Part shown: in pieces, positions 34,780-64,000 of the stretch | Layout of the letters: every line of letters begins with the position of its first letter | How positions within the stretch are numbered: position 1 is the stretch's first letter | Assembly: GCF_900155985.1 (NCBI RefSeq) | Contig: NZ_FTMA01000003.1 | Span: 124,001 to 188,000 of the forward strand | Length of the DNA: 64,000 nt | Source of the DNA: Maribacter ulvicola | Lineage (GTDB): Bacteria > Bacteroidota > Bacteroidia > Flavobacteriales > Flavobacteriaceae | Direction: 5' to 3' | Translations under genes and position numbers: made by a program | The notes under the pieces: model-generated | Seen by the model: only the letters and a program-made list of their open reading frames with translations | Database searches by the model: none | Told to the model about the DNA's origin: nothing

Positions 34780-34809
34780 AAAAACCAAGATATTAAACTC
34801 TTGGTTTTT
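34780..34809 (+). terminator. Rho-independent terminator after the lyase-like gene
   Basis: An 11-bp stem (AAAAACCAAGA at 34780-34790 with its complement at 34799-34809) and an 8-base loop lead directly into a run of T. It ends transcription 25 bases after the lyase-like stop codon. Confidence 0.75.
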
Positions 34810-34901
34810 TTGTTTGTATGATTAAGCATACATTTTATCTAAAACTTAGATTAAAACACCTTTATATTCTTTAATTTCACAGCAAAGTAAAATCAGTCTT
34901 C

Positions 34902-36071: not shown

Positions 36072-36193
36072 ATAACACTACCCACTTATTTAATCTTAAA
36101 GTATTAGATAAAAAAGAAATGTTTAGCAATTAATAATGTTAATACAGGTTTATAAATAATGGTAAATTTAGTAGTAATCGCAAATAATTTCCA

Positions 36194-37300: not shown

Positions 37301-37402
37301 TAGGTATTTAATTATATTTAAAATTACACAATCCTTCGCTATTCCTAGCGTTATGATTTCAACGAATTAAGCTTTAATAAAAAAACAGAATAAATATTGT
37401 CT

Positions 37403-39253: not shown

Positions 39254-39308
39254 ATCTATATAAAAAGTTTATTCAATTCTACAAAAGCCCTCCTAAAAAC
39301 TTAAATCT

Positions 39309-40388: not shown

Positions 40389-40394
40389 TTGTTA

Positions 40395-41552: not shown

Positions 41553-41559
41553 TAAGTAT

Positions 41560-42759: not shown

Positions 42760-42760
42760 T

Positions 42761-44209: not shown

Positions 44210-44218
44210 AATTAGAGT

Positions 44219-45175: not shown

Positions 45176-45296
45176 TGGATCGAGCATCTTAAGTATAGCC
45201 CTTTCACAACTAACAAGATCATTTCAGTAGTTTGACTTTAAAATATGATATTCTTCGAATTCTACCTTTTTTTAAATAAGTTTTTGGTTCCTTTAT

Positions 45297-46379
45297 ATGA
45301 TGCATAATACAATCATAGGCTTTGGGTCTATATTTCACAAACAAGCTATTGATGGCATAGAAAATACTTCTAATGCTCACTTCCTTGGCGCGCATGAATT
45401 ATTCTATGCTGGACGCTATGCTATAAAATATGTAATTCACGGTATCCTAGAACATCAACATATCAACGCTATTTGGATACCAAATTATTATTGTCCGTTC
45501 GTTAAAAACTGGCTTGAACAAGAATTTGAGTCTATAACCTATTATGACATTGACCCGTTTGATGCCACTTCTAAAATAGATTGGTCTTTATTTACAGCAA
45601 ATGATATAGTAATCGCTAATAATTATTGGGGGCTAAAAGAGCACCAAATACCTAATGGAGAACGGCCCATTGTTATTGAAGATCATTCTCATGGTTGGCT
45701 CTCTAAAGGTTGTATGGACAGCCAAGCAGATTTTTGTATAGCATCATTACGAAAAACACTACCCATACCCCTTGGCGGCATTGCCTGGAAACCGGTTAAA
45801 AGCAAATGTAGCATTCCGCTGAAACCACTAGAAAAAAACAACATAGCCATTGAAACAAACCCTATGCTACAATCATGGGCGCTGATCGATAGTGCAATGG
45901 AAACCAAAGCTACCTGTAACAAAGAAGAAGAAAAAAGCGTCTTTTTACAACAATATAGCCAGGGAGAAGTACTACTTAGAAATACCCAAGAAATAGTACC
46001 ACTGTTAGCTGAACATGAAACCGTAATACGTAACGCTCTTTTTAAAGATTTTAACGCCTATAAAAAAACTCATTTAGCATATATACTACAGGCCATACAC
46101 CCTTCACAAGCGTTTAAAATAATTAACGAGGAAAGTAAAACACCTTTTGGCCTTCTGTTAGCCTTTAAAGAACGGGAGTTATTTAAGGATTTTAAACAGT
46201 TTTTAATTACCCACATGATTTACCCGGCAGAACTGTGGCCACAAAATAACATAGCCCAAGACTATAAATTTTTAGTAAACATTCATATCGATTTTAGGTA
46301 CAACACAAAGGATCTAGAATTTATGGCCGATACTATTAACCGTTGGACATTACAACGATCTTCATTACAAATAGAATAA
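45297..46379 (+). CDS. DegT-like PLP-dependent protein of unknown function
   Basis: The 360-residue protein resembles a divergent DegT/AHBA-type aminotransferase. IVIEDHSHG would supply the PLP-ring aspartate, and FCIASLRKTLPIPLGG offers a lysine in the place of the Schiff-base lysine. The N-terminal substrate region (GRYAIKYVIHGIL, IWIPNYYCP) also fits the fold. I cannot name the substrate. It lies between the second acylation cassette and the initiating transferase gene, so it may add or process an amino group on the polymer, or it may have lost activity. Confidence 0.6.
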   Translation: MMHNTIIGFGSIFHKQAIDGIENTSNAHFLGAHELFYAGRYAIKYVIHGILEHQHINAIWIPNYYCPFVKNWLEQEFESITYYDIDPFDATSKIDWSLFTANDIVIANNYWGLKEHQIPNGERPIVIEDHSHGWLSKGCMDSQADFCIASLRKTLPIPLGGIAWKPVKSKCSIPLKPLEKNNIAIETNPMLQSWALIDSAMETKATCNKEEEKSVFLQQYSQGEVLLRNTQEIVPLLAEHETVIRNALFKDFNAYKKTHLAYILQAIHPSQAFKIINEESKTPFGLLLAFKERELFKDFKQFLITHMIYPAELWPQNNIAQDYKFLVNIHIDFRYNTKDLEFMADTINRWTLQRSSLQIE

Positions 46380-46487
46380 CAATGGTAAATTAGAAACTCT
46401 CTATTTTTAAAACATCCTTGTTTTTGTATACGTATAATAATGGTTTAAATTAGCCGTTTTTGATTAGGTACCAATACCATCCCCAAA

Positions 46488-47138
46488 ATGATATATAAAA
46501 AATATTTTAAACGCCCTTTAGATTTTATATTAGCTCTTTTTGGTCTGCTAGTCTTTTCTCCTATTATAGTGATAACCATTATAATACTAGCTATTAGCTT
46601 TAAGGAAAATCCTATTTTCACCCAAAGAAGACCCGGTAAAAATGAGAAATTATTTTCTGTCTTTAAGTTAAAGACCATGAACAGCAAAAAAGATGCTGAC
46701 GGAAACTTACTTTCAGATACAGAACGTTTAACTCCTCTAGGTATTTTTATACGCAAAACCTCAATAGATGAACTACCACAACTTGTGAATGTTCTTATTG
46801 GCGATATGAGCCTAATTGGACCAAGGCCTTTATTAATACGCTACTTACCCTACCATACAGAAAGGGAAAAAAAGCGTTTTTTAATTCGCCCGGGGATCAC
46901 GGGTCTGGCACAAATATCTGGCAGGAATTTTATTAGTTGGGAAGATCGCTTTGAGAAAGATGTGCAATATTATGAAAATTTGACCTTTGCTACCGATTTA
47001 AAAATATTCTGGCAGACTTTAATGAAGGTAGTTTCGTCAGATGATATTGAAGTGAACCCCCAAGGTAACCCAGGTATGGAATTTTTAGATGTGGAGCGAA
47101 GTTCATGGGAACAGTTTAAACATCTTAAAAAAAGTTAA
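46488..47138 (+). CDS. Initiating sugar-phosphate transferase (PglC-type polyprenyl phosphohexose transferase)
   Basis: The 216-residue monotopic membrane enzyme has one hydrophobic re-entrant segment (about residues 12-36). The catalytic Asp94-Glu95 pair is in TSIDELPQL, and MSLIGPRPLL and RPGITGLAQISGR are family signatures. It transfers a sugar-1-phosphate to undecaprenyl phosphate to begin each repeat unit. The short form, lacking the extra membrane domain of WbaP, is that of PglC, whose donor is UDP-diacetylbacillosamine. This agrees with the dehydratase-aminotransferase pair in the locus. Confidence 0.92.
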   Translation: MIYKKYFKRPLDFILALFGLLVFSPIIVITIIILAISFKENPIFTQRRPGKNEKLFSVFKLKTMNSKKDADGNLLSDTERLTPLGIFIRKTSIDELPQLVNVLIGDMSLIGPRPLLIRYLPYHTEREKKRFLIRPGITGLAQISGRNFISWEDRFEKDVQYYENLTFATDLKIFWQTLMKVVSSDDIEVNPQGNPGMEFLDVERSSWEQFKHLKKS

Positions 47139-47140
47139 TT

Positions 47141-48274
47141 ATGAAGATTGTTTTTATCGTAATGCGTTTTGGTAAGGATGGATTGTCCACCAATATTTTG
47201 GAACTTACCCGAGGGCTCATAAACAAAGGCCATGATATACACATTATTACCAGTGGTTTTAAAAGTATAGGAACCACCAATACCGTTTTTTTTGAAGAAT
47301 TAAAATCAGAATTCAACGCGCTAGGTGTTCATTTACATTATTTTAAGGAACCCACAGGCAATCCTCTAAAAAAAACATTGTTGTCACTTGCTAGCCTTAC
47401 CAGAATAAGTAGGTTACTTATGACATTGAACGCAGATGTAATTCATTGCCATTCTCCAAACCTTACTTTTATACCTTGGATCTTAAAGCGTAAATATGTC
47501 TCTACCGTTCACGCAGATACCATTACACCAAATGCGAGATATAAGCACCCTACCCTATTAATTGCAGTAAGCCAAGGTTCTAAAGAATTTACGGAAAAAG
47601 TAATGCATTCACCACCTAAAACCATACGCATGGTTTACCATGGTATTTCTGATCGCTTTGCCCAACCAATTTCAAAAGATAGCATCAACCAATTAAAGTT
47701 AGATCATAACATACCTACCGATAAATTGATCGTTGGTTTTGTAGGTAGAATTTCAGAAATGAAAGGTACCGATGTTTTGGTGGAAGCGATTGGTTCTTTT
47801 CTTTCGCCAGAAATTAGAAGTAATATGCACCTTGTATTATTAGGTGATTATTTAAACAAAGACAAGGAGAAATGGCTTGATGATATGCTTCTAGAACAGC
47901 AACTTAAAGATAAGGTCACAATAGTTTCTTTTCAAGACCCAAAACCTTTCTATCAACTGTTCGATGTTTTTGTACTGCCATCACGTTCCGATACTTTTGG
48001 ATTGGTAGCTGTAGAAGCCATGATGAGCGGTTGCTGTACCATTAGGGCCAATTCTAACGGTGCCTATGACCAAATTGATGACGGCGTAAACGGCATGATA
48101 TTTAAAATGGAAGATGCTGCCGAATTAGGCCAGAAATTAGAACAAGTGCTTTTAGACGAAAACCTACGAAATACATTTGCCATAAGAGGAAAAGAAAAAG
48201 CTTTAAAGCATTTCACAAACCGCCAAATGATCGATAATACATTGACGGTTTATGAGGAACTCATGAGCTTATAA
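47141..48274 (+). CDS. GT4-family glycosyltransferase
   Basis: The 377-residue GT-B enzyme shows MRFGKDGLSTNILELTRGL, VIHCHSPNLTF, VGFVGRISEMKGTDVLVEAI and donor-site SRSDTFGLVAVEAMMSGC. It follows the initiating transferase after 2 bases and is the last plus-strand gene of the polysaccharide locus. The bases after its stop are shared with the convergent GNAT-like gene. Confidence 0.9.
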   Translation: MKIVFIVMRFGKDGLSTNILELTRGLINKGHDIHIITSGFKSIGTTNTVFFEELKSEFNALGVHLHYFKEPTGNPLKKTLLSLASLTRISRLLMTLNADVIHCHSPNLTFIPWILKRKYVSTVHADTITPNARYKHPTLLIAVSQGSKEFTEKVMHSPPKTIRMVYHGISDRFAQPISKDSINQLKLDHNIPTDKLIVGFVGRISEMKGTDVLVEAIGSFLSPEIRSNMHLVLLGDYLNKDKEKWLDDMLLEQQLKDKVTIVSFQDPKPFYQLFDVFVLPSRSDTFGLVAVEAMMSGCCTIRANSNGAYDQIDDGVNGMIFKMEDAAELGQKLEQVLLDENLRNTFAIRGKEKALKHFTNRQMIDNTLTVYEELMSL

Positions 48275-48301: not shown

Positions 48302-49396
48302 TTATTTTGGTGCTCTATAACTTGGAAAAAAACCTTCCTTAATATTTTCTAAGGCATGCTCTTTATCCATATTCAGGAGTTCTAAGAATTCTAGATATTT
48401 TGAAGGCATAACAATTTTTCTACCCGTGTAAAAATCTATATCATCATCAAAAGGGAAGTATTTTTTCTTGTACAAATAGAGGTTATCTTCTTTACCGTTA
48501 GCTAAGCCACCACCAATCATATAATATTGTAAGCCCGCTTCATTAGCCCATTTTATTGCACTAATTTTTAAATACTCATTAGGTCTTAATTTAAAGTGAT
48601 CCGCGTCTGTACCGCCTAAAAAGGAATACATGGTAGCTTCAGAGATTAGAAAAAGCTCGGTCGATATTGGTAAACCATCTTTATACACCAACCCAATAGC
48701 ACATTTGTCTTCATTATTCTTCCAAAAATCTAGAAAATACGACAGAGGATGGTAAAAAGAATCTACCGCATCCCTCCTATCCATAGTACCAATATAAACG
48801 TCATAAAATTCTTGAACTTGTTTTTCTGTAATATCTTTATAGAACAATTGAAACTCCAAACCAATTTTCTCAGCTTTACGAAACTGATTTCTTGTATTTG
48901 ATTTTAAATTAGACCAAAAAAGTTCCCAATTGGTTATGTCTCCCTTTACATTATAAAGGGTATGCAACGCTTCTCCGGAATAGTGCCTGTAATTTTCAAA
49001 AAAATTGAATCGCAAAAACTCAGATACTACCTTATTGTTCTTGTACCAAGTATCTATAAGCTCCCAAATTTTTTCAATGTCCTCTTCAGAAATTCCTTTT
49101 ACGAAAAAAGGACCATTATACCCCCAAGGACTACTGACATCATAAAAACCGGTTTGCTCATCACCAATAACAATTTTTCTAAGCACAAATGGCATTACTG
49201 CCATAACCTGGCCGTCTACTGAATTTAGTATAAAAAATTGTAATTGTTCATTATCGTCTTGTGTACTATTTAAAAGCTCATAAGCATAATAACCACTCTC
49301 ACAGCCTATTTTTTGTAATGCTTCTTTATATAGATCAATATGTTGATCCTGTTCAAATGAATAATTTTGTAATGTAAAAGTCTCTATAGACTGCAT
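48302..49396 (-). CDS. FemAB/GNAT-type acyl- or aminoacyltransferase-like protein
   Basis: About 364 residues from the ATG at 49396. The frame stays open back to another ATG at 49483, but the extra 29 residues look unlike the family start. The protein has two GNAT-like halves, as in FemAB and the acetyltransferase family associated with polysaccharide loci. One is FYDVSSPWGYNGPFF; the other is LKSNTRNQFRKAEKIGLEF followed by ELFLISEATMYSFLGGTD and YKKKYFPFDDDIDF. Such proteins move acetyl or aminoacyl groups to sugars or peptides. Facing the locus, it may decorate the polymer, including N-acetylation of the 4-amino sugar. That is a guess. Confidence 0.72.
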   Translation of the reverse strand: MQSIETFTLQNYSFEQDQHIDLYKEALQKIGCESGYYAYELLNSTQDDNEQLQFFILNSVDGQVMAVMPFVLRKIVIGDEQTGFYDVSSPWGYNGPFFVKGISEEDIEKIWELIDTWYKNNKVVSEFLRFNFFENYRHYSGEALHTLYNVKGDITNWELFWSNLKSNTRNQFRKAEKIGLEFQLFYKDITEKQVQEFYDVYIGTMDRRDAVDSFYHPLSYFLDFWKNNEDKCAIGLVYKDGLPISTELFLISEATMYSFLGGTDADHFKLRPNEYLKISAIKWANEAGLQYYMIGGGLANGKEDNLYLYKKKYFPFDDDIDFYTGRKIVMPSKYLEFLELLNMDKEHALENIKEGFFPSYRAPK

Positions 49397-50048
49397 GTTA
49401 TAATGTTTTGTAAAATAGAACGTCAATATTAATAAAGAATTGTTTGCTATCTCCCGTAAAAAAAAGTTTTTAATACGACCCAAATAGCTATCAGTAATAC
49501 AACGAATTATTAAAGATAATAGTGCAAAACTAGGATATACATTACTAAAAATAAAATAACCGACACAAAACCTTAGATCTAAAAATGAAAAAATAGACTA
49601 AAAGAAAAAAATGATTTAAACCTCTAAAACCCACGGTGAAAAACAGCCTGTAATCCTTTTTTTTGTTTGACAATGGTAGCACCTATAAAAACCCAAAAGT
49701 ACATGGCATTTTAAAATATGATGATTTGTAATGTTCTGCATCACCACAATGCTTTTTTTACACACTTTATAAATGACTTTATAAGAGCAACATAGCTTTT
49801 ATTTTGTACTGCTTTTTTGCTTAATTTTCAAAAAAAATTAAAAAGACGTTGAAGAACCTAGTTCTTTATCCTAAAAACATAGCGATTAAAAGAAAAAATT
49901 AAAAAAACTTAAACAATAACAAATTTCATTAGTTAATTTGATTTCCAGATTTTTACGTGAAATACACCGTCAATAGAATTTAATAGTAGTACCGGTTTTA
50001 GCGTAAATGATCCTACCAGAATTGATTTAGTTACTATAATTAATACAT
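49397..50048. other. About 650-base intergenic region between polysaccharide and NRPS/PKS loci
   Basis: AT-rich sequence without a recognisable gene or RNA. On the minus strand 49532-49525 reads TAGTTTTG, a match to the TAnnTTTG -7 box, and could serve the GNAT-like gene, without a TTG at proper spacing. The region marks the boundary between two functional loci. Confidence 0.5.
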
Positions 50049-50909
50049 ATGAAAAACAATTTTAAAGCAACACTGTATTCATTTCTTGTAGGAACCTTTG
50101 GTAATTTTCTGGTATTTCTTCTGCCCAAAAAAGCAAAACGGCTTTCTAAGGATAGAATTACACTCATACATAGAAACAAAAACAGTATGACCATTGCAGA
50201 AAGGCTCATGCGTGGAGCCTTGGTAAAAAAACTGGACCCTATTGATGATCATGATACCATAGCTGAATTAAATAGAAATTTTTGGGTGAATAAATCGGCA
50301 ACGGAATTGTTTACCGAAACTGCAGATGGATTTGAGAAGGATTTTTTACCAAACTGTACTTTCATTTTCGAAAAACTAAAGAAAGAACTTTCAAATACCT
50401 CTGAAAGCTACACCACTTTGGTAGAAATAGGTACTGGCAATGGAGATGTGCTCAACTATCTCAGTGCTGAATTTCCTGAAATTAAACGATGTATTGGCAT
50501 AGATCTGAGTACCGATCAGATAGCAATGAATATTAAAAAATTTGAAAACAATAAAAAATTAGAGTTTATAAGAGCAGATGCCTTTGACTGGGTTAGGGAT
50601 CATGGCGAGAGCCATACCATTTTTGTCTCCTCTAGAGGTGTTTTGGAATATTTCATGGAAAACAGATTACAAGCGTTTTTAAAAGAGATCAATCTATTGG
50701 GCAAAACAATGTTCGTTGCCATAGAGCCAAATGGTGGTGACCATGATTTTGAAACTACGCTCCACTCCCAACTTTACGGAGATGAACCTTCTTTTTCACA
50801 TAACTACCCGCATCTTTTTAGAAACGCCGGCTTTAGTTTATGGCATTCTTCACAGAAACCATGGGGAGGAGAAAGAACGTATCAGACATTTATTGGAGCA
50901 AAAAATTAA
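50049..50909 (+). CDS. Class I SAM-dependent methyltransferase-like protein
   Basis: The 286-residue protein has motif I VEIGTGNGDVLNYLSAE (about residue 130), an acidic ribose-binding strand CIGIDLSTDQIAMN and FIRADAFDW, the usual order of a Rossmann methyltransferase. The N-terminal 30 residues are hydrophobic and basic (YSFLVGTFGNFLVFLLPKK), suggesting membrane association. The substrate is unknown. It is the nearest plus-strand gene upstream of the NRPS/PKS genes, so it may methylate that product, but a 527-base gap separates them and it may be independent. Confidence 0.72.
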   Translation: MKNNFKATLYSFLVGTFGNFLVFLLPKKAKRLSKDRITLIHRNKNSMTIAERLMRGALVKKLDPIDDHDTIAELNRNFWVNKSATELFTETADGFEKDFLPNCTFIFEKLKKELSNTSESYTTLVEIGTGNGDVLNYLSAEFPEIKRCIGIDLSTDQIAMNIKKFENNKKLEFIRADAFDWVRDHGESHTIFVSSRGVLEYFMENRLQAFLKEINLLGKTMFVAIEPNGGDHDFETTLHSQLYGDEPSFSHNYPHLFRNAGFSLWHSSQKPWGGERTYQTFIGAKN

Positions 50910-51436: not shown

Positions 51437-54400
51437 ATGAGTAGCACAAATCAACTTTATCTTCTATTTGAAGAAGCGGCCAGATTATATCCTAATTCCG
51501 TATGCTTAATAAATGATGAAAATATATTCACATATAAAGAGGCCGAACAAAAAATTGCAGCTGTATGCCATGCTATTCTAGATTTGGCTAAAGATGAAAA
51601 GTTTATAGGCGTACCTACCACTAGGGGTATTGAACAGATCATTTTTGTACTTGCCGTTTTAAAAGCAGGTAAAGCATACCTACCTATTGATTTTAAGTAT
51701 CCAAAAAAACGGATTGAAAGTATTATAGCTAATTCAAAACTTGCTTACTGCCTAACTACTGACACGGATGATACCAGTGCCAAAGCAAACGGTCTTACAC
51801 CTATTAAAATTGTTTCTGATAAAGAAACTACGCATCAACATACGACCAGTACTACGACCAACAATTTAGCCACTTACATTCTATACACCTCTGGCTCAAC
51901 GGGCGAGCCCAAAGGGGTTTGTATGGGTGAAAATGCCCTATTAAATCTAATTAACTGGCAGAACAAACACTCCATTAATAAAAATGGCTCCCGAACCTTA
52001 CAATTTGCTCCACTGAGTTTTGATGTTTCTTTTCAAGAGATTATGGCAACCCTTAGCAATGGTGGTACACTTGTACTCATTAATGAAGAACAACGGTTAG
52101 ACATGGTGGCACTAATAAAGCTAATTGAAGAGCAATCTATAAACAGACTTTTTCTTCCGTTTGTAGCATTGCAGGCGCTTGCTGAAGCAGCTCTTAGTAT
52201 AGAGGTTTTTCCATCTAGCTTAAATGAAATTATGACCGCTGGTGAGCAATTGAAAATTACGTCACAGTTAAAAACATTTTTTACAGCATTAGATGGTTGT
52301 ATTTTATATAACCAATATGGCCCCACAGAATGTCATGTAGTCACCCAATTAAAACTAGAAGGCGACCCTGAACATTGGCCAGCCCTTCCTAATATTGGCA
52401 AACCCATTGATCATACGGCTATCTACATTTTAAATGAACATCAGCACATAGAGGAGAATGGTGTTACAGGAGAACTCTGCATTACCGGTAGTTGCCTAGC
52501 AGAAGGCTATTTAGGTAATGAAGAACTTACGAAAGAAAAATTTTCAACCCTAAAAATTTCAGATGCTACTGAAATTAAAATGTATAGAACAGGTGATGTA
52601 GCACGCTTTCTACCTGATGGTAATATTGAGTTTCTTGGTCGTGAAGATGAACAAGTAAAAATTAGCGGCCACAGAATAGAACTTAGCGAAGTGGAAATAG
52701 CACTTAATACATTACCAAATATCACCCAGGCAGTGGTGGTTGCCAGTACCCATTTCTCTGAACAAGCACAACTTATTGCGTACCTGAAAGCTAATGGTGC
52801 CTCTGAGGACAGTCCTAAATTTAGACAGCAAGTTAACGATGCTTTACCAGAGTACATGTTACCTTCTTATTTTATCTGGGTAGATGAATTTCCAAAGACC
52901 ACTAGCGGAAAAGTAGCTAAAAAAGAATTGCCTCTTCCGGAATATAAGAGGCCAACTACGGCACCATTATATAAAAAGCCGACCACTGACACACAAAAGA
53001 ACATAGCCCAAGTTTGGTCTAAAATTTTACGTATTTCAAAAATAGGAATATGGGATAACTTTTTTGAAATGGGAGGCACTTCTCTCCTAGCCCAAAAAAC
53101 CGTACTGACATTAAGACAACAATTTAAGTACGAAATACCAATCATAAAATTGTACCAACACCCAACGATTTTAGAACTATCAAATTTTTTAGCACCGAAA
53201 AAAAGCATACAGAAGAAACAAAACCAAAGGAAACAAAACTATCGATCATCATCTATAGCGGTTATTGGTATGGCCGGTCGATTTCCAGGAGCAAATTCTA
53301 TTCAAGAACTTTGGGAAGTATTAAGGGATGAAAGGGAAACCATAACATTCTTTACGCCAGAAGAACTTGACCCCAGTATTCCAAAAGCTCTTGTTAACGA
53401 TCCTCTATATGTACCTGCCAGAGGCATAATACCTACCGCAAAGGAATTTGACGCTTCTTTTTTCGGTTTAAACATAAAGAATGCCGAGGTAATGGATCCC
53501 CAACAACGTTTGTTCCTAGAAATTGCTTGGGAGGTGTTGGAACAAACAGGGCATTTAACATCTCATTTTGATGGAAAAATTGGTGTGTATGCCGGTACAG
53601 GGATGAATACCTATTATAAAAATAATATTCTACCTCATAAAAAAGTAATGGATAGGGTAGGTAGTTTTCTTGCAGATACGTTTAATGAAAAAGACTATAT
53701 AGCATCAAGAACTGCATACCAATTAAACCTTAAAGGTCCTGCGGTAAGTGTACATGCAGCTTGCTCTACATCTTCACTTGCCATTGCACAAGCTGTAGCG
53801 GCTATTAGAAATGGCCAATGTGATGTTGCTTTAGCTGGCGGATCAAGTGTAACAGCTCCAATTCATATGGGTCATCTATATCAAGAAGGATCAATAATGA
53901 GTCCTGATGGCCATTGCAGGCCTTTTGACGAAAATGCCAAAGGGACCATCTTTAGTGATGGTGCCGGAGTTTTACTATTGAAACGTTTAGAAGACGCAGA
54001 GCAAGATGGCGATACCATCCATGCCTTAATTAGAGGTGTTGGTATAAATAACGATGGTGGTAACAAAGGTAGTTTTACCGCACCAAGCACTGAAGGTCAA
54101 GCAGATGCTATTTCATTGGCGCTTTTTGATGCTAAAGTGAACCCATCTGAAATAAGTTATGTAGAAACACATGGTACTGCAACACCTGTTGGGGATCCTA
54201 TAGAAATTGAAGGTCTAAAAATGGCCTTTGGCGAACAAGAAGAGCATGGGTTTTGTGCCATTGGCTCCATAAAAAGCAATATGGGGCATCTAACAGGAGC
54301 CGCGGGAGTATCGGGTGTTATAAAGACCATTTTAGCATTGAAAAACCAACAAATTCCGGCTTCATTAGGATTTAAAAAACCAAACCCCTCCATTGATTTT

Positions 54401-57400
54401 GAAAACAGTCCCTTTTATGTCAACAACAAATTAAGTCCATGGAATTCTAAAGGCTTAAGGAAAGCCGGAGTCAGCTCTTTTGGAGTTGGAGGTACCAACG
54501 TACATATTATCGTTGAAGAATATGAAAATAAAAAAATAAAATCTAATGCAATAAGGCCCTTACAATTGCTTATGTGGTCCGCAAAATCAGCGCATAGTGC
54601 AATTGGCTATCAAAAAGCGCTTGGTGAATATATAGATCCACTTTCAAACATGAAGCTTTCAGATATTGCACATTCATTAAATAGAACAAGAGCGGAATTT
54701 GCATACAGAAGTTTTGCTATTGCCAATACCCTAGTTGAGGCAAAAGAAATCTTATCATCTGACAACCACAAACAGGTAAAGACAAATGAACTAAAGATAG
54801 ATCCCAGTGAACTGGCTTTTCTATTTCCAGGACAAGGTTCACAATATCTTCAAATGGGGAAATCGCTCTATAAAGAAGAAATAGTTTTTAAAAAAGCGGT
54901 AGACCGGTGCGCCAAAATTTTAAAAAACAATCTGAAATTAGATATTAAAGATATCATATACCCAAAGGACAATTCTGCCCAAGCAGCAGAAAAATTAAAG
55001 GATACCAAGTTTACCCAACCAGCATTATTTGTTGTGGAGTATGCCCTTGCACAATTATGGATGAGTTGGGGCATAAAACCCACTTTACTTTGTGGGCATA
55101 GCATAGGAGAATTCGTAGCTGCCCATTTAGCTGGTATCTTCAGTTTAGAAGATGCTCTACAGCTTATTACCATGCGCGGTAAGTTAGTAAGTGAACTACC
55201 AGGAGGCAGTATGCTTTCTGTCCGTTCAACTATTGATGATATCAAAAATTTAATACCCAATGAACTATCTATTGCAGCTATAAATTCTGATCGTTTAATT
55301 GTAATATCAGGTCCAGACAATGCCATTGAGAATTTCTCAACGGTATTACATAAAAAAGGTATTGCCAATAAACTTTTATTAACTAGTCACGCCTTTCATT
55401 CAACAATGATGGATCCCGTACTAGATGTATTTGAAACTGAAGTAAAAAAAGTAAGCCTTAGTCTTCCGCGTATACCAATTGTTTCAACGGTAACCGGTAC
55501 ATGGCTAACTGATGAAGAAGCTACGAGTTTTACCTATTGGACAAATCATTTGCGAGCAGCCGTGAATTTTTCAGGTGCTATGGAAACTGTTCTAAGGCTA
55601 GAAGATACGGTGTTATTAGAAGTAGGTCCTGGACGTGCCCTTTCTACTTTATCTATGCAAAAGAAAGGTTTAAAACCATTGGCAGCCATAGCAAGTTTAC
55701 CCCTGCCCAAAGAAAATAAAAACGCCCACCACGCTGTATTAGCAGCTTTAGGTGACTTATGGCTCACTGGCATTACTCCTGATTGGGCATCGTTTTATGG
55801 CAATCAAATTAGTAAAAAAGTAGCGTTGCCAGCTTATGTATTTGATCGTAAACCCTGTTGGATAGCACCTGTTACCGTAGAACGAGAAATTAAAACTATA
55901 CAAACAAAACAACAAATAAACACAGCCCGTCAACCTCAAGAAACCAATCACAATACCAAACATACGTTTATGAGAAAGCCCGTAATTCTAAAGAAAATAT
56001 CAGAAATCGTAGAAAATAATTCTGGAATTGAAATTGAAGCTAGTGAATTTAAATTAAGCTTTTTAGAACTTGGGCTAGACTCTCTTGTCTTGACCCAAAT
56101 GGCTATAAATTTAAAAAACGAATTTAATACCCCTATTACTTTCAGGCAATTAAATGATGATCTTGAATCACCAGATTTGTTAGCTGAACATTTAGATAAA
56201 ACTTTACCTAAGGAGTTTTTGGCACCAGCATCACTAGCAGAGCCAACAACTGAGCATGTACAAGCTACCGCCAACCATGCAACATCGTTTAATGCCGCTC
56301 CCCAGAATTTGAATACGATAGCAGCACCAAATCAAAATACCGCATTAGGTCTTATTGCGCAGCAAATACAACTATTAGGTCAACAAATACAGTTAATACA
56401 GACTAGTGGCAATGCTGGTAACCAAGTTATAGCAAAACAACCAAATACCGCTACAGAAATAAATACTCCCGCCACATCTCCCACCCCACGCTCTACCGCT
56501 AATGATATGCTATCCGATGACGAAAAAAAAGAACACCAAAAACCATTTGGAGCTACACCCAGAATAGAAAAACAAACAGACAACCTTAGTAGTTCCCAAA
56601 AAGATTTTTTGGAAAACTTGATTATCAGCTATAACAAAAAAACGGAGAGCAGCAAAGCCTATTCCCAAAAGCATCGCCACCACATGTCTGATCCTAGAGT
56701 GGTTTCGGGTTTTAAACCACTCACCAAAGAATTGGTCTACCCTATTGTTGTAGATAAGTCTCTTGGCAGCCGTCTTTGGGATATTGATGGCAACGAATAT
56801 CTTGATGTATTAAATAGTTTTGGTGCATGCCTTTTTGGCCATCAACCCAATTTTATAAAAGAAGCTATCCATAAACAAGTTGAACTAGGGTTTGAAGTTG
56901 GACCTCAACATCCTTTAGCCGGAGAAGTTTGTGAATTGCTTTGTGAATTTACCGGGCAAGATCGTGCCGCTCTTTGTAACACGGGTTCTGAAGCCGTATT
57001 AGGGGCTATGCGAATTGCGAGAACCGTAACAGGGCGTTCATTAATAGTCGCATTTACTACCTCTTACCATGGTATTAATGATGAAGTTATTGTTAGAGGT
57101 TCTAAAAAATTAAAATCTTTTCCTGCCGCATCTGGTATTTTACCAGAAGCAGTTCAAAATATGTTGATATTGGATTATGGAACAGATGAAAGTTTGGCCA
57201 TTATTAAAGAACGTGCACATGAGATTGCTGCAGTTCTGGTAGAGCCGGTACAAAGCCGTAGACCAGACTTTAGACCTATAGAGTTCTTGAAAGAAGTAAG
57301 AAAAATTACTACGGCATCTGAGTCCGTTTTAATTTTCGATGAAATTATTACAGGTTTTAGAACGCATCCTGGCGGTGCTCAGTCACTTTTTGGAATTAAG

Positions 57401-58093
57401 GCAGATATAGGCACATACGGAAAAGTAATTGGGGGAGGTATTTCTATTGGGGCAATAATAGGAAACAAAAAATGTATGGATGCGCTTGATGGAGGCCATT
57501 GGCAGTATGGTGATGACTCATTCCCAGAAGCAGGAGTCACCTATTTTGCAGGCACGTTTGTACGCCATCCACTTGCTTTGGCTACATGCAAAGCGTCATT
57601 ACTACATATGAAAGAAAAAGGGGAAGCCCTACAAGATGAATTGGCAAGAAAGACCGAACATTTTGCCACTGAAATCAATTCATATTTTGAATTGAAAAAT
57701 CTTCCCATGAAAATAATGTTCTATCGTTCTTTATGGAAATTAAAATTAGAAGAAGAAATACCATATGCGGAATTGTTCTTTGTATTGATGCGTGAAAAAG
57801 GCATCCACATTTGGGATGGTTTTCCATGTTATATGACTGAAGCATACACAGAAGAAGATTTGCTGCATTTAATAAATACCAGTAAAGAATGTATCAATGA
57901 ACTTATATCCGCAGGATTTTTAAAATCTGAACCAAGTCATCGTTCAAATGAAAAAAATCAAAAATCGCTTACAAAAGAATTGAATCAACCACCAGTGCCA
58001 GGTGCTCGGTTAGGTATTGATGAATCAGGCAATCCTGCTTGGTTTATTGAAGATAAAGATAAGACCGGGCAATATGTTCAAATTGATTTGTAA
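51437..58093 (+). CDS. Hybrid NRPS/PKS with aminotransferase: A-PCP-KS-AT-ACP-AMT
   Basis: The 2218-residue megasynthase has these domains. Adenylation, about 10-500 (YTSGSTGEPKGV, NQYGPTE, GREDEQVKISGHRIEL), has specificity residues read as DVQFMAQVV, close to the proline code DVQFIAHVV. PCP has Ser549. Ketosynthase, about 605-1030, has Cys776, His912 and His951. Acyltransferase has Ser1222 in GHSIGE and HAFH at 1318-1321, the malonyl type. ACP has Ser1549 in GLDSL, followed by a Gln-rich helical linker. Class III aminotransferase, about 1680-2140, has PLP Lys1996 in YGKVIGGG. There is no ketoreductase, so the beta-keto thioester should be aminated to a beta-amino acid. The tail PPVPGARLGIDESGNPAW matches the linker that precedes C domains in iturin-type synthases. 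Confidence 0.95.
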   Translation: MSSTNQLYLLFEEAARLYPNSVCLINDENIFTYKEAEQKIAAVCHAILDLAKDEKFIGVPTTRGIEQIIFVLAVLKAGKAYLPIDFKYPKKRIESIIANSKLAYCLTTDTDDTSAKANGLTPIKIVSDKETTHQHTTSTTTNNLATYILYTSGSTGEPKGVCMGENALLNLINWQNKHSINKNGSRTLQFAPLSFDVSFQEIMATLSNGGTLVLINEEQRLDMVALIKLIEEQSINRLFLPFVALQALAEAALSIEVFPSSLNEIMTAGEQLKITSQLKTFFTALDGCILYNQYGPTECHVVTQLKLEGDPEHWPALPNIGKPIDHTAIYILNEHQHIEENGVTGELCITGSCLAEGYLGNEELTKEKFSTLKISDATEIKMYRTGDVARFLPDGNIEFLGREDEQVKISGHRIELSEVEIALNTLPNITQAVVVASTHFSEQAQLIAYLKANGASEDSPKFRQQVNDALPEYMLPSYFIWVDEFPKTTSGKVAKKELPLPEYKRPTTAPLYKKPTTDTQKNIAQVWSKILRISKIGIWDNFFEMGGTSLLAQKTVLTLRQQFKYEIPIIKLYQHPTILELSNFLAPKKSIQKKQNQRKQNYRSSSIAVIGMAGRFPGANSIQELWEVLRDERETITFFTPEELDPSIPKALVNDPLYVPARGIIPTAKEFDASFFGLNIKNAEVMDPQQRLFLEIAWEVLEQTGHLTSHFDGKIGVYAGTGMNTYYKNNILPHKKVMDRVGSFLADTFNEKDYIASRTAYQLNLKGPAVSVHAACSTSSLAIAQAVAAIRNGQCDVALAGGSSVTAPIHMGHLYQEGSIMSPDGHCRPFDENAKGTIFSDGAGVLLLKRLEDAEQDGDTIHALIRGVGINNDGGNKGSFTAPSTEGQADAISLALFDAKVNPSEISYVETHGTATPVGDPIEIEGLKMAFGEQEEHGFCAIGSIKSNMGHLTGAAGVSGVIKTILALKNQQIPASLGFKKPNPSIDFENSPFYVNNKLSPWNSKGLRKAGVSSFGVGGTNVHIIVEEYENKKIKSNAIRPLQLLMWSAKSAHSAIGYQKALGEYIDPLSNMKLSDIAHSLNRTRAEFAYRSFAIANTLVEAKEILSSDNHKQVKTNELKIDPSELAFLFPGQGSQYLQMGKSLYKEEIVFKKAVDRCAKILKNNLKLDIKDIIYPKDNSAQAAEKLKDTKFTQPALFVVEYALAQLWMSWGIKPTLLCGHSIGEFVAAHLAGIFSLEDALQLITMRGKLVSELPGGSMLSVRSTIDDIKNLIPNELSIAAINSDRLIVISGPDNAIENFSTVLHKKGIANKLLLTSHAFHSTMMDPVLDVFETEVKKVSLSLPRIPIVSTVTGTWLTDEEATSFTYWTNHLRAAVNFSGAMETVLRLEDTVLLEVGPGRALSTLSMQKKGLKPLAAIASLPLPKENKNAHHAVLAALGDLWLTGITPDWASFYGNQISKKVALPAYVFDRKPCWIAPVTVEREIKTIQTKQQINTARQPQETNHNTKHTFMRKPVILKKISEIVENNSGIEIEASEFKLSFLELGLDSLVLTQMAINLKNEFNTPITFRQLNDDLESPDLLAEHLDKTLPKEFLAPASLAEPTTEHVQATANHATSFNAAPQNLNTIAAPNQNTALGLIAQQIQLLGQQIQLIQTSGNAGNQVIAKQPNTATEINTPATSPTPRSTANDMLSDDEKKEHQKPFGATPRIEKQTDNLSSSQKDFLENLIISYNKKTESSKAYSQKHRHHMSDPRVVSGFKPLTKELVYPIVVDKSLGSRLWDIDGNEYLDVLNSFGACLFGHQPNFIKEAIHKQVELGFEVGPQHPLAGEVCELLCEFTGQDRAALCNTGSEAVLGAMRIARTVTGRSLIVAFTTSYHGINDEVIVRGSKKLKSFPAASGILPEAVQNMLILDYGTDESLAIIKERAHEIAAVLVEPVQSRRPDFRPIEFLKEVRKITTASESVLIFDEIITGFRTHPGGAQSLFGIKADIGTYGKVIGGGISIGAIIGNKKCMDALDGGHWQYGDDSFPEAGVTYFAGTFVRHPLALATCKASLLHMKEKGEALQDELARKTEHFATEINSYFELKNLPMKIMFYRSLWKLKLEEEIPYAELFFVLMREKGIHIWDGFPCYMTEAYTEEDLLHLINTSKECINELISAGFLKSEPSHRSNEKNQKSLTKELNQPPVPGARLGIDESGNPAWFIEDKDKTGQYVQIDL

Positions 58094-58142
58094 AATATAT
58101 TACAACATCCATTTTTAAGGAAAATCTTATAAGATTAATGAA

Positions 58143-61100
58143 ATGATCAAGAGCATAACTAAACAAAACCGAGCAGTGACTTATAATCCATTTTCAGGAC
58201 CAACTATTGAAAAAGTAATACATACTACCGCTTCGCAGGCAGAAATATGGATTGGTTGTACTTTAGGCGGAGCAGATGCAAATAGAGGGTATAACGAATC
58301 TGTTTCACTTATTTTAAAAGGTATATTAAATAAAAATGCTTTAGAACAAGCTATTCAACACTTAATTAAACGGCACGAAGCACTTCGATCAACTTTTAGT
58401 ACGGATGGTCTGTTTATGATTATCTTCAATGAGATACAAATAGAACCTGTTTATGAAGATTTTTCTAGCTTTTCAACTATAACAAAGAAAAATAAGGTTT
58501 CTGATTATTTATCGGCAGATGCAAATCACATATTTAACCTAGCAGAGGGTCCCTTAATTAAAATTGGTATACTAAAGTTATCTGAATTAGAACATCAGCT
58601 TATCATTACCGCACATCATATTATTTGTGACGGCTGGTCTATGGGTATTATTCTTCAAGATATTGGAGGTTTTTATTCTGCGACCATTACCAACACCCCC
58701 CATACGCTCCCAACAGTAAATGATTTTAGTTCGTATGCCGATCAGCAACAAGAATTTATTGATAGTGAAGATTTTATAACGACCCAAAAATATTGGCTAG
58801 ACCACTATAAAAGTTCAGTTCCAAAAGTTACTTTACCTACTGATTTTCCGCGACCAAAGATCAGAACTTTTAAAAGTAATCGTTTAGATTTCCCAATAAA
58901 TTATGACTTAGTCAATGATTTAAAAAAAGTTGGAATACAATCTAGAGCAAGTTTTGTAGCTACACTTATGACCGCCTTTGAGGTTTTTCTGTATTATCAG
59001 ACAGGTCAGAACGATTTGGTTATAGGTTTATCTGCCGCCGGGCAATCTTTAAGTGGCAAAAATCAATTGGTAGGCCATTGTGTTAGCTTACTTCCATTAC
59101 GTAGTAAAATAACACCAGAAACTCCGTTCAACACTTATTTAAAGCAAAGAAAAGATGAAATATTTGATGCGTATGAGCATCAACAATTTAGCTTTGGTCA
59201 ATTACTTGAAAAACTAAATGTTCAACGAGATCTCTCACGAGTACCACTGGTTCCCGTTACTTTCAATATTGATATGGGTATGGCCAATGATGTAATCTTT
59301 GAGGGATTAACGTATAGGCTAAAAAGTAACCCAAGAGCCTTTGAAACATTTGAACTTTTTTTAAATGCTACTGGAACAGAAGAAGAACTCATCTTAGAAT
59401 GGTCTTATAATGCTTCTCTTTTTAAACCTAAAACTATAGAGCAAATGATGCTCTTGTTTAAAGAGATACTTCACAGTATAATAGAAAACCCAGCTAAGGA
59501 GATTGGCGCTATTTTAAACCTTGACAAAACAAATTTTATACAGCAGAACAGTGTAGAACTATCTTCTACCAAGGTAACGGTTGAAGAAGCGAACGCTTCT
59601 ATAAGTACCAGTTTTACTGATCAAACAGAAAATGAAACTGTTATAGAAGCATTCTTAGCACAGGTAAAAAAATCTCCTAACAATACGGCAATAGTATTTG
59701 GATCTAAAAAGATTACATACCAAGAATTAGATACGTTATCTAACCAGTTCTCAAATTACATTGTCAACACCCATAATGTCATGGTGAATGATATCGTTGG
59801 CATTATGCTTGAGCAAAGCGAATGGGTAATTGTATGTGTTTTAGGAATATTAAAATCTGGAGCGGCATACGTACCTATAGCCCCTAGTTATCCTGAAAAA
59901 AGAAAAAATTATATCATCAGTGATAGTCAATGTAAAATTACAGTTGACGTTGATTTTTTAACCAATTTTATAAAAGTAATAGATCATATTACGCCTAATT
60001 TAAACCCTTCTATTAAGATTCTTCCACAGAGTCTATGTTATGTGATATATACCTCTGGCACCACAGGTAATCCCAAAGGTGTAATGAATGAACATAGAAG
60101 TTTGTTCAACTATTTAGTAAGCAGCTTAAATTATATTGATAAAAACTCAAATACATCTGGGTGTTTTGCACATCTATCCTTATCGTTTGATGCTAGCATA
60201 ACAGAAATTTTTCTACCGTTAATAAGCGGTAAACGTTTGGTTATCACTACTGGTAATGGATTAGATGTTTTTGAAGATAGTAATCTTTTTAAATATGCTC
60301 CCTATGATTTTATTAAGCTGACACCTTCACATATCTCCATATTTACTTCTGTATTAAAGAATATTTCCGATAAGAATATTGCTACTAAATATATTATAGG
60401 AGGTGAAGCTCTTTACGATCATCATATCAATAATTTTAAAAGCTTGGGTATAGATGCTTTAATTGTCAATGAATATGGCCCTACTGAAGCAACAGTAGGT
60501 TGTTGTATTAAAGAAATTCATACTTCATACTCCTCAGACTCAAATGAAAGTATCTCTATAGGTTTACCGATATCCAATACTCAAATGTATATACTGGATG
60601 AAAACCTAGAGGAATTGCCCATAGGCGATATTGGTGAACTCTATATTGCCGGTAAAGGTCTTGCTAGGGGATATTTAAATCGTCCAGAATTAACAAAAGA
60701 ACGATTTGTTACCGATGTGTTCAATAAAGATGAGCGTATGTATCGTTCAGGAGATCGTGCAAAATGGCTCCCCAATGGAGAAATTGCCTTTATGGGGCGC
60801 GTTGACGACCAAGTAAAGATCAGAGGATATCGAATTGAACTAAGTGAAATTGAAAGTGTATTAAATTCTTTGCCAGGCATAAAACAATCGGTGGTAGTAA
60901 CCAGTAAACACCTTGCCGGTGATATTAGTTTAGTTGCTTATTTACAACCAACCAAAGATAAATTTGACTCAAATACGGTAAGAAATCAACTTAAGAAAAT
61001 AATGCCAGAGTTTCAAATTCCCTCAACCATGATGTGGGTAGAGCAATTTTCTTTAACCACTAATGGAAAAATAGACAAAACAAACCTACCGAGTCCAGAA

Positions 61101-64000
61101 TATGTGCGGTCAGATTCTAGTACGTCCTTAAAAACTCCACAAACAACACTTGAAAAAAATATAGCCAGTGTTTGGAGTGAAATGCTTCAAGTACCTGATA
61201 TTACCATTAACGATAATTTTTTTGAAATGGGGGGATCCTCATTATTGGCTCAAAGAGTAATAAGTTTATTGAGAAAAAAATTAAACCAAGAAATACCATT
61301 AATTAAAATATTTCAACATCCTACAATTGCTCAGCTTGCTGAATTTCTAGGTGATGATACAAAGGTAGATCATGAAAACGAAACCATTTCTAAACTAGAA
61401 AAATCAAGTGTTACAGCGGCCATAAGAAATTTTAACGATCAAGAGCCACGCGCTACTGGTAATCTGAATAAGACCACAAAATTAGAAATCCAAACCACAA
61501 AAGCACAATCTGAAATATTGACCGACAGTTTTTTTGGAGGTGATGATGCAAAAAAAGCCTACAATATTTCGCTCTCTTTTAAATTTATAGGCACATTGAA
61601 GTATGATGCTGTAGAGCAGGCCATAGTATCTTTGATCGAACGCCATGAATCATTAAGATCATCATTTAGTGAAGACCTTAATTTTATGCATATCCACACA
61701 GATATACATGTAGATATTTTATTTTATGACATTACAGATCAATCAGAAACCGCGCAGCAAAAGACTAGATTGTCTTTAATTGATAAGGATGTTAATTATC
61801 TTTTCGATTTGGTCAATGGTCCTTTATTAAAATTTGGTTTAATTAAAATAAATGAACATGAACATGAATTGATACTTTTAGTAAATCATGCTGTTTGCGA
61901 TGGTTTAAGTATTAACATTATACTAGAAGAACTAAGTGAACTCTATACTGCTTTTGCTCAAGGTAAGGAACCAAATTTAAACGAACCCGACGCTTTCAGT
62001 GTATTCGCTACTAAAGAAAATGAATATGCAGAAAGCGACGCGTATAATCGTTCGGTAAATTTTTGGTTAAATATGTATAAGGATTCTATTCCAAAACTTG
62101 AATTACCCATAGATTTTCCAAGACCAGAATTACGAACCTATAACAATCACCATTTAGATTTTCAATTAGATAATAGCATCTTAAATGCATTAAAACTTAT
62201 TGGCAATAGTAGTGACTCTAGTATGTTCACTAGTGTAGTTACGACATTAATAGCCGCATTTGAAGTCTTTTTATACCAACAAACAGGTCAAAATGATTTG
62301 GTTTTAGGGCTTACAAGTTCTAGGCGGGCCAATTACGATATGATGCAAATGATTGGTCATTCTGTCAATTTATTACCGCTTCGTAGTAAACTTGACCCAA
62401 AAATAAATTTCAAAACGTATTTAAAACAGCGAAATACGCAGTTATTTGATGCATACGAAAACCAATCAATTAGTTTTGGTCATCTTCTAAGAAAACTCTC
62501 TGTACCAAGAGATGCTACAAGGGTTCCTTTGGTTCCTGTAATTATAAATATTCAGTTAGATGATGATTTGGAAAGTAAACATTCATTTTACGATTTAAAA
62601 ACGGATATAATTTATAATGAAAATACGTATAGGACCTTTGAAATTGAACTTCAGGTATTTATGTCTAATGAAGGTCCTTGTTTTCGTTGGAGGTACAATA
62701 CAACACTCTTTAAACCAGAAACTATAGAACGGATGATGACTTCTTTTAAAGAAGTTTTAAATGATATAATTGCTAATCCAAATTTAGAAATAGGGAGTAT
62801 TATACAGATAGATACTGCTGCTTATTTAGAACTAAACGATACCGCTGCAATTTATCCGCAATTACTGTTACATGAGTTAATTGCACAACAATGCAAAATA
62901 GCCCCTTCAAAAAAAGCGATTAAATTTGGAGAATCTGACATTTCTTACGGGGATCTTGAAAAACAAATTCACCAAATAGCTCATTTTTTAAAACAACAAG
63001 GTGTACAACCTGGAGATTTTGTAGCGGTATCTTTACCACGCTCTATTGAATTAATTACAATTCTACTTGCCATCATGGAAAGTGGAGCAGCGTATCTTCC
63101 TTTAGACCCTAACTATCCTAGCAAAAGACTGGAGTTTATGTTAGAAGATTCTGGATCTAAATACTTAATTACTACAGAAACTTCTGCTCTACATCTAAAT
63201 GTTAACATAACACGTTTATTGGTCTCCTCTATTTTTTCAGATTTGTCAACATATTCGTGTACACCAGTAAATACTAAAAGTAGTAATAACCAAATAGCGT
63301 ATATTTTATACACCTCTGGTTCAACAGGTAAACCAAAAGGGGTTACAGTTACACATAAAAATTTGGTAAATCTATTATACAGTATTTTAGAAAAACCTGG
63401 TGTTCAAAATACGGATAAAGTAATTTCAATAACCTCTATATCTTTTGATATTGCCGGTTTTGAACTTTATGCTTCGTTACTCAAAGGAGCTCAATTGATT
63501 TTAACTGACGAAGAAACATCTAAGGATCCCAGATTATTATTAGAAGTACTAGAAACTGAAGAAATCACCATGATGGAGGCAACACCTGCAACTTGGCAAA
63601 TGTTAATAGACGTAGGTTGGAAAAATCATTTACCGCTAAAAGCTTTTTGTACAGGTGAAGCTTTACCTATGGCTTTAGCAAAAAACATTTTGAGTAAGGT
63701 CAATGAGCTATGGAATCTTTATGGACCTACAGAAACAACCATTTGGTCTTCCATAAAAAAGATCAATAAGACAGATGATGTGGTAACTATTGGAAAACCC
63801 ATAGCCAACACACAATTGTACATAATGAACCAGCAGGAGCTTTTGGTAGCACCTGGGAGAATAGGAGAATTATGTATTGCAGGAGATGGCGTTGCCCAAG
63901 GATATTGGAAACGACAAGAACTCACGAATGAAAAATTCATAAAAAATCCTATTGAAACGGAAATAGGTCCTGTGCTATACCGTACAGGAGATTTGGCTAA
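58143..64000 (+). CDS. Nonribosomal peptide synthetase C-A-PCP-C-A..., cut by window end
   Basis: The frame from ATG 58143 stays open to the window end (over 1950 codons). C domain 1 has HHIICDG at residues 158-164. A domain, about 495-965 (YTSGTTGNPKGV, NEYGPTEATVG, GRVDDQVKIRGYRIEL), has specificity residues read as DATKIGEVG, near the asparagine code DLTK[LI]GEVG. PCP has Ser1033. C domain 2 has NHAVCDG at 1248-1254; the catalytic second His is kept, the first His is Asn. The second A domain is incomplete, running to the A7 motif YRTGDLA, with residues DIFEFTLIW that I cannot assign. It starts 49 bases after the hybrid gene with YNPFSGPTIEK, as C domains following an aminotransferase do, so it is the next module of the same line. 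Confidence 0.95.
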   Translation, partial: MIKSITKQNRAVTYNPFSGPTIEKVIHTTASQAEIWIGCTLGGADANRGYNESVSLILKGILNKNALEQAIQHLIKRHEALRSTFSTDGLFMIIFNEIQIEPVYEDFSSFSTITKKNKVSDYLSADANHIFNLAEGPLIKIGILKLSELEHQLIITAHHIICDGWSMGIILQDIGGFYSATITNTPHTLPTVNDFSSYADQQQEFIDSEDFITTQKYWLDHYKSSVPKVTLPTDFPRPKIRTFKSNRLDFPINYDLVNDLKKVGIQSRASFVATLMTAFEVFLYYQTGQNDLVIGLSAAGQSLSGKNQLVGHCVSLLPLRSKITPETPFNTYLKQRKDEIFDAYEHQQFSFGQLLEKLNVQRDLSRVPLVPVTFNIDMGMANDVIFEGLTYRLKSNPRAFETFELFLNATGTEEELILEWSYNASLFKPKTIEQMMLLFKEILHSIIENPAKEIGAILNLDKTNFIQQNSVELSSTKVTVEEANASISTSFTDQTENETVIEAFLAQVKKSPNNTAIVFGSKKITYQELDTLSNQFSNYIVNTHNVMVNDIVGIMLEQSEWVIVCVLGILKSGAAYVPIAPSYPEKRKNYIISDSQCKITVDVDFLTNFIKVIDHITPNLNPSIKILPQSLCYVIYTSGTTGNPKGVMNEHRSLFNYLVSSLNYIDKNSNTSGCFAHLSLSFDASITEIFLPLISGKRLVITTGNGLDVFEDSNLFKYAPYDFIKLTPSHISIFTSVLKNISDKNIATKYIIGGEALYDHHINNFKSLGIDALIVNEYGPTEATVGCCIKEIHTSYSSDSNESISIGLPISNTQMYILDENLEELPIGDIGELYIAGKGLARGYLNRPELTKERFVTDVFNKDERMYRSGDRAKWLPNGEIAFMGRVDDQVKIRGYRIELSEIESVLNSLPGIKQSVVVTSKHLAGDISLVAYLQPTKDKFDSNTVRNQLKKIMPEFQIPSTMMWVEQFSLTTNGKIDKTNLPSPEYVRSDSSTSLKTPQTTLEKNIASVWSEMLQVPDITINDNFFEMGGSSLLAQRVISLLRKKLNQEIPLIKIFQHPTIAQLAEFLGDDTKVDHENETISKLEKSSVTAAIRNFNDQEPRATGNLNKTTKLEIQTTKAQSEILTDSFFGGDDAKKAYNISLSFKFIGTLKYDAVEQAIVSLIERHESLRSSFSEDLNFMHIHTDIHVDILFYDITDQSETAQQKTRLSLIDKDVNYLFDLVNGPLLKFGLIKINEHEHELILLVNHAVCDGLSINIILEELSELYTAFAQGKEPNLNEPDAFSVFATKENEYAESDAYNRSVNFWLNMYKDSIPKLELPIDFPRPELRTYNNHHLDFQLDNSILNALKLIGNSSDSSMFTSVVTTLIAAFEVFLYQQTGQNDLVLGLTSSRRANYDMMQMIGHSVNLLPLRSKLDPKINFKTYLKQRNTQLFDAYENQSISFGHLLRKLSVPRDATRVPLVPVIINIQLDDDLESKHSFYDLKTDIIYNENTYRTFEIELQVFMSNEGPCFRWRYNTTLFKPETIERMMTSFKEVLNDIIANPNLEIGSIIQIDTAAYLELNDTAAIYPQLLLHELIAQQCKIAPSKKAIKFGESDISYGDLEKQIHQIAHFLKQQGVQPGDFVAVSLPRSIELITILLAIMESGAAYLPLDPNYPSKRLEFMLEDSGSKYLITTETSALHLNVNITRLLVSSIFSDLSTYSCTPVNTKSSNNQIAYILYTSGSTGKPKGVTVTHKNLVNLLYSILEKPGVQNTDKVISITSISFDIAGFELYASLLKGAQLILTDEETSKDPRLLLEVLETEEITMMEATPATWQMLIDVGWKNHLPLKAFCTGEALPMALAKNILSKVNELWNLYGPTETTIWSSIKKINKTDDVVTIGKPIANTQLYIMNQQELLVAPGRIGELCIAGDGVAQGYWKRQELTNEKFIKNPIETEIGPVLYRTGDLA

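Follow-up and report, generated by a model that had tools for sequence, protein, structure and literature searches.

A gene pair of Maribacter ulvicola encodes a PKS–NRPS line that is predicted to be primed by an amino acid and to build a short peptide led by a vicinal diamine, probably for a surface polysaccharide, a reading that as a whole we put at a probability of roughly 0.4. Its two parts differ in strength. The chemistry (amino acid adenylation, extension by malonyl, a transamination that yields a vicinal diamine, condensation and TE release) is likely, judging from domain content and motifs; the polysaccharide role is a tentative conjecture that we draw from gene neighbourhood only. 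The 64,000-base stretch analysed here (the window) comprises bases 124001–188000 of a 347,777-base contig, which runs on past the end of the window.

Gene 1 (51437..58093, + strand; ORF, Pfam and our own HMMs) encodes a protein of 2,218 amino acids (aa) with the order A-PCP-KS-AT-ACP-AMT. Its domains, all on the + strand, are a loading A domain (51467..52912; Pfam, code and pocket search), a loading PCP (53003..53191; Pfam), a ketosynthase (KS) with a C-terminal extension and its Cys-His-His motifs present (53249..54721; Pfam and motifs), an acyltransferase (AT) of the malonyl type bearing GHSIGE and HAFH (54818..55777; Pfam and motifs), an ACP with the motif GLDSL (55979..56191; Pfam, motif and our own HMM) and a class III aminotransferase (AMT) domain of the MycA type, with the PLP lysine in TYGKVIGGG (56642..57886; Pfam and structure-chain search). 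The Pfam matches all exceed the cut-off: AMP-binding at aa 11–359, PP-binding at 523–585, KS at 605–1095, AT at 1128–1447, a second PP-binding stretch and Aminotran_3 at 1768–2125; by our own HMMs, the second carrier lies near aa 1515–1585.

Gene 2 (+ strand; ORF and Pfam) starts at 58143, is cut by the window at 64000 and runs on to 65426, so that the window holds C-A-PCP-C-A and the complete 2,427-aa frame adds PCP-TE. Its first condensation (C) domain carries HHxxxDG (58221..59516, +; Pfam and motif) and is followed by the first extension A domain (59637..61094, +; code and our own HMM) and a PCP (61161..61349, +; Pfam). The second condensation domain reads NHxxxDG, with the second His kept (61473..62852, +; motif and our own HMM), and the second extension A domain extends past the window's end (62865..64000, +; code and pocket search). 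A PPTase frame (65419–66168) overlaps the end of gene 2; as genes 1 and 2 lie on one strand only 49 bases apart, the three look like one operon. The G+C content is 0.381 in gene 1, 0.344 over the window and 0.338 in gene 2. The domain order up to the window's end, which the initial annotation had read from the letters, was recovered by Pfam together with our own HMMs, and its attribution of the line to a flavobacterium also held: the closest named locus is in Maribacter litoralis (AMT 99% identical, loading A domain only 84%).

Relatives were sought by a genome scan, which gave at least 580 at E ≤ 1e-3; only the best 80 loci are counted below, because the scan motifs may be common to other aminotransferases. 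All 80 are from Bacteroidota, at 65–99% identity. The order A-PCP-KS-AT-ACP-AMT is found in 77 of them, the other three being cut by contig ends; a gene 2 relative is present in 74 and a PPTase in 63. Each of the 49 genomes checked has one copy of the line. An AMT of at least 69% identity in a large frame occurs in 12 of 299 genomes of the family, M. ulvicola included, and one at E ≤ 1e-130 in 12 of 296 genomes drawn over the phylum (again with our own; two are only 48–53% identical, and one genome has two copies). The extra C-A-PCP of the window recurs in M. litoralis and Gelidibacter gilvus.

The catalytic residues are conserved throughout. In the 77 relatives whose KS and AMT share a frame, the Cys, His and His motifs of the KS and the GHSxGE and HAFH motifs of the AT are invariant, and the AMT keeps its catalytic lysine in 80 of 80 loci. 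HAFH is a signature that we take to denote malonyl specificity. The gap between AT and ACP spans 44–128 aa (median 59; 77 relatives), too short for a ketoreductase to fit. Among solved structures, that of the MycA domain (6kfm) is nearest to the AMT, at E = 8.8e-110; the family after it scores 2e-44.

The loading domain is an amino-acid A domain above the TIGR01733 cut-off, and its code reads DVQFMAQVV (+K), which we regard as proline-like. Independently of the code, a 161-residue pocket region was compared with chains of known structure, and Gramicidin S synthase 2 (8p5o, E = 1.5e-26) and Tyrocidine synthase 2 (9bfd_B, 1.2e-25), presumably the proline modules GrsB1 and TycB1, stood ahead of the next chain (8.1e-14). 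With the whole domain as query, linear gramicidin synthase A came top by scoring on two domains; per single stretch, Tyrocidine synthase 2 outscored it (298.6 versus 252.3 bits). In Gramicidin S synthase 2 and Tyrocidine synthase 2 these A domains belong to extension modules of a pure NRPS, whereas their pocket-alike in Maribacter is the loading module of a PKS. The first extension A domain has the code DATKIGEVG, which we take to be Asn-like; the Asn assignment comes from that code, the pocket search against solved chains having given no close match. The code of the last A domain, DIFEFTLIW, is atypical, and its pocket lies closest to 4zxh (1.4e-31) and 5u89 (2.4e-27), in our understanding the domains that activate glycine in AB3403 and DhbF. 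In 74 of 77 relatives the loading A domain has no condensation domain in front of it, which should leave the first amine free; the three exceptions are all from Maribacter, and in one of these the domain is only about 250 aa long. Proposed earlier from the letters, a proline-like amino acid starter thus gains support from both code and pocket, malonyl-type extension, absence of a ketoreductase and transamination are all indicated by these motifs and spacings, and an Asn-like next unit agrees with the code.

Two readings would deny the line this chemistry or give it another. One is that it has decayed, or that a dead AMT or KS keeps it from making a diamine: activity is predicted from sequence, and the second condensation domain has NH for HH. 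The frames are open at full length, with KS and AT motifs kept in 77 of 77 and the AMT lysine in 80 of 80 relatives, and we consider decay very improbable. The other, to which we give next to no weight, is a lipopeptide line of the iturin type. Lines with MycA or BamA (mycosubtilin, bacillomycin D) likewise carry a class III AMT domain in a PKS/NRPS; they start from a fatty acid and produce a cyclic lipoheptapeptide. The iturin and mycosubtilin likeness drawn in the initial annotation holds for the AMT, which is of the MycA type, and fails for the line as a whole, in which the loader is an A domain with a Pro-type pocket and no fatty-acyl ligase is present, only two extension modules precede the TE instead of seven amino acid modules, and the AMT is 43% identical to BamA of Bacillus. 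We discarded such a lipopeptide because of loading domain and module count.

In the chemistry that we propose, the loading A domain would adenylate an amino acid, here probably proline, and load it onto the PCP; the KS would add one malonyl unit from the AT-loaded ACP to give a 4-amino-3-oxoacyl thioester; and, with no ketoreductase present, the MycA-type AMT would turn the ketone into an amine. The result would be a C2-extended 3-amino acyl unit, that is, a vicinal diamine, which from Pro would be 3-amino-3-(pyrrolidin-2-yl)propanoyl. The condensation domains would then couple this unit first to an Asn-like residue and next to a Gly-like one, the cluster's PPTase arming the carriers and the TE releasing the peptide. 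For the unmodified linear acid, arithmetic predicts C13H23N5O5, with [M+H]+ at about 330.18, and for Pro-start relatives with the Gly module only, C9H17N3O3, expected at 216.13. A SAM methyltransferase upstream of gene 1 (50049..50909, + strand; Pfam), relatives of which stand beside 25 of the 80 loci, may methylate the product, and the peptide would most likely serve a surface polysaccharide, as a substituent or a linked peptide. Pyrrole-type oxidation of the prolyl starter was rejected, since the commonest Pfam families of neighbouring proteins include no acyl-CoA dehydrogenase.

The starter appears to vary among relatives. Of 75 loci with a readable starter code, 43 begin DVQ or DVH and 37 have exactly DVQFMAQVV; the remaining codes resemble, as we read them, those for Thr, Asn and Val, together with unassigned ones. 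Identity to the window's line is 31–47% for the A domain, 64–77% for the KS and 67–84% for the AMT in the 32 loci with non-Pro starters, and 41–84%, 60–92% and 68–99%, respectively, in the 43 with Pro-like ones. Median A-domain identity is 36% for non-Pro versus 52% for Pro-like starters, with ranges that touch, while the KS medians are 70% versus 65%, from which we infer that loading domains have been swapped while the chassis was kept. Such exchange on a conserved KS–AT–AMT chassis would be a natural version of the engineers' swap and could give many C2-extended 3-amino acids. Among 83 extension A domains, 46 have DILQ(L/I)G(M/V/L)(I/V)W, presumably a Gly-like code. In two Flavobacterium loci a single gene 1 is accompanied by separate C-A-PCP-TE genes, three in one locus and two in the other, which looks as though several terminal modules drew on one donor line. 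In three other Maribacter copies the loading A domain is Thr-like and follows a condensation domain, which is partial in one of them; an A-PCP-TE or C-A-PCP-TE gene lies upstream, and Wza- and Wzc-like genes follow directly downstream.

The conjectured polysaccharide role comes from the setting of the line. A capsule/exopolysaccharide (EPS) locus (14026..48274, no single strand assigned; Pfam) contains CpsB/CapC, Wzc-like and Wza-like proteins, nucleotide-sugar enzymes, MBOATs, GT2, a Wzy-like protein, GT4s, an Asn synthase and a sugar transferase, along with five frames without a telling Pfam match. Downstream, 66268–67059 matches Gly_transf_sug and Caps_synth, a capsule-type glycosyltransferase, so that glycan genes flank the line on both sides. 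Between the capsule locus and the line lies a FemAB/GNAT-like acyltransferase (Acetyltransf_6; 48302..49483, − strand; Pfam), which we dropped as a conserved attaching enzyme, since its relatives stand beside only 2 of the 80 loci; no peptide-to-sugar attaching enzyme conserved with the line was seen.

Searching with 12 capsule-region proteins of the window itself, we found EPS-type ORFs to make up 43 of 587 neighbours, in 29 of 80 loci, compared with 5 of 450, in 2 of 27, in control windows (Fisher P = 7e-7 for ORFs and 0.003 for loci); the controls, 20-kb windows taken at one set position in these genomes, numbered 27 of an intended 40, since 12 did not exist and one was short, and offered more than twice as much non-core sequence. 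The 29 positive loci are not independent, because 19 are from Maribacter (7) or Mucilaginibacter (12), and M. litoralis, nearly the window itself, gives 3 of the 43 ORFs. Other positive loci include those of Arcticiflavibacter, Psychroserpens, Euzebyella, Fibrella, Hymenobacter, Pedobacter and Puia. By this 12-protein search, 51 of the 80 loci have no EPS-type neighbour.

Distances were analysed in 49 genomes. Of the 80 loci, 64 were considered for this (the 16 left out are mostly MAGs or short contigs), and 49 of the first 50 of these were used. A sugar transferase lies within 40 kb of the line in at least 19 of these genomes (3.2 expected), a Wza-type gene (Poly_export) in at least 11 (2.5 expected) and one or the other in at least 20; the observed counts are lower bounds, drawn from 150 of 199 sugar-transferase matches and from part of the Poly_export ones, and the expectations use all matches. 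Among the matches listed, neither gene is within 40 kb in 29 of the 49, Winogradskyella included. At other NRPS loci of the same genomes, a Wza-type gene lies within 23 kb in 2 of 6 genomes, so NRPS genes in general may favour such places; a sugar transferase within 40 kb was found in none of the 6 among the matches listed. Pfam tallies took up to two neighbours per side, of 120–900 aa and not cut by an edge, which gave 240, of which 229 were used; the 11 omitted include six of the penicillin-binding-protein type from Mucilaginibacter, which slightly raises the glycosyltransferase share. Methyltransferases are the commonest family in the first set of nearest neighbours, with 17 of 117, and glycosyltransferase family 2 leads the second, with 28 of 112. 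In the top 25 Pfam families of each set (97 and 99 families in all), the only transporter family is OEP, with two members.

The same line occurs on proteobacterial plasmid records, with AMT identities of 56% in Variovorax and 46–48% in Rhizobium, Sinorhizobium and Ensifer. From 50 plasmid records listed, we chose 11 regions by match score and hoped-for annotation, not by neighbours; four are from Rhizobiaceae and likely share a common history. EPS machinery surrounds the line in 9 of the 11: Variovorax VAI-C, Aliiroseovarius, Rhizobium jaguaris, Ensifer canadensis, Rhizobium SL42, Loktanella, Rhizobium CCGE532, Rhodobacter CZR27 and Jannaschia. In Jannaschia and Loktanella, flippase and sugar transferase genes surround it. 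Variovorax WDL1 has one glycosyltransferase only near the line, and the region around the line in Variovorax RA8 has none. The stretches of Rhodobacter and Paenibacillus end at the ends of their records. Around four other AMT lines (Planktothrix, Nostoc, Bacillus and Paenibacillus), no EPS-type genes were found within 15 kb or to the record's end.

In 10 of the 11 proteobacterial regions a C-PCP is added after the second A domain, with a TE found in five of these; Aliiroseovarius has the plain order A-PCP-KS-AT-ACP-AMT-C-A-PCP-TE. The second A domain has the code DILQxGxIW in 7 of the 11. The alphaproteobacterial lines of Rhizobium SL42, Loktanella, Rhodobacter CZR27, Jannaschia and Aliiroseovarius resemble that of Maribacter in A-PCP, KS-AT-ACP-AMT-C-A-PCP and PPTase, and four of these five have the DILQxGxIW code. 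They differ in that the loading A domain is a separate protein in SL42 and Loktanella, that four of the five have an extra C-PCP(-TE) without an A domain and that their AMTs are 42–48% identical. The last protein of seven proteobacterial lines is a separate C-PCP(-TE) that lacks an A domain, and in five of these the pattern HHxxxDG was not matched; a terminal protein of this kind might pass the chain to an outside amine.

How the peptide is used admits two further readings. The same chemistry could yield a free, secreted small peptide (an inhibitor, signal or antibiotic), the capsule genes merely sharing variable islands with it, and to this we give odds somewhat short of even. EPS loci are accessory hotspots, gene 2 has a TE, many copies (51 of 80 loci) have no EPS genes nearby and other NRPS loci are close to a Wza-type gene in 2 of 6 genomes, all of which would speak for a free peptide. 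Against it, the line is embedded repeatedly in EPS loci of differing gene content in Bacteroidota, Alphaproteobacteria and Betaproteobacteria, none of the four other AMT lines lies beside EPS-type genes, and two OEP members are the sole transporter representatives in the top 25 neighbour families. The peptide might instead be a metallophore, as a vicinal diamine with a carboxylate could bind copper or zinc, and copper oxidase or transport genes lie near the copies of Spirosoma linguale, Variovorax WDL1 and RA8, with a TonB receptor also encoded in the Spirosoma stretch and, in one relative, a TonB-receptor-like gene some 2–3 kb past the PPTase. These genes are only scattered, however, and the 25 leading Pfam families of each neighbour set include neither a TonB receptor nor a metal transporter; we rejected this reading as improbable. 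If the line does feed polysaccharide synthesis, it would join modular peptide synthesis to capsule chemistry and place free amines on a surface polymer. A bolder generalization, which we think rather doubtful, is a recurring PKS–NRPS of EPS machinery in Bacteroidota and Proteobacteria whose variable diamine, mostly joined to Gly and set by loading-domain exchange, decorates or links surface polysaccharide.

We know of no product of this line, which spans two phyla and many environmental genera. The initial annotation had likewise named no described flavobacterial product, in agreement with our keyword search of the literature, which found neither a product of this layout nor a link to EPS and, covering few subscription papers, is weak evidence. 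The line is not unique: the layout recurs widely and was already listed for Pedobacter heparinus C6XWU5, an A-CP-KS-AT-CP-PLP1 protein with the antiSMASH prediction ‘Nrp-Mal-Gly-Pk’ (Milano et al. 2013, PMC3870968, Table 2). The portions of that article available to us report neither an isolated product nor a capsule context for C6XWU5, and the main text of PMC10734526 contains neither ‘exopolysaccharide’ nor ‘aminotransferase’. Gene 1 shares the domain order of the first protein of C6XWU5-type lines, and the Maribacter line differs by an extra Asn-like module; its AMT is followed by an Asn-like code and then by DIFEFTLIW, with the pocket nearest 4zxh and 5u89. The A-PCP-KS-AT-ACP-AMT layout is thus known but orphan, and its capsule setting is the new part.

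Three further features were observed. In 12 of the 80 loci a Cupin_8/JmjC-type protein, a putative hydroxylase, lies between or beside the two genes (two members were checked by Pfam), and in 16 a 266-aa probable membrane protein lies upstream, of which one member was checked and had no Pfam match. The window also encodes, at 9383–12772, a fused methylmalonyl-CoA mutase with B12-binding and MeaB domains.
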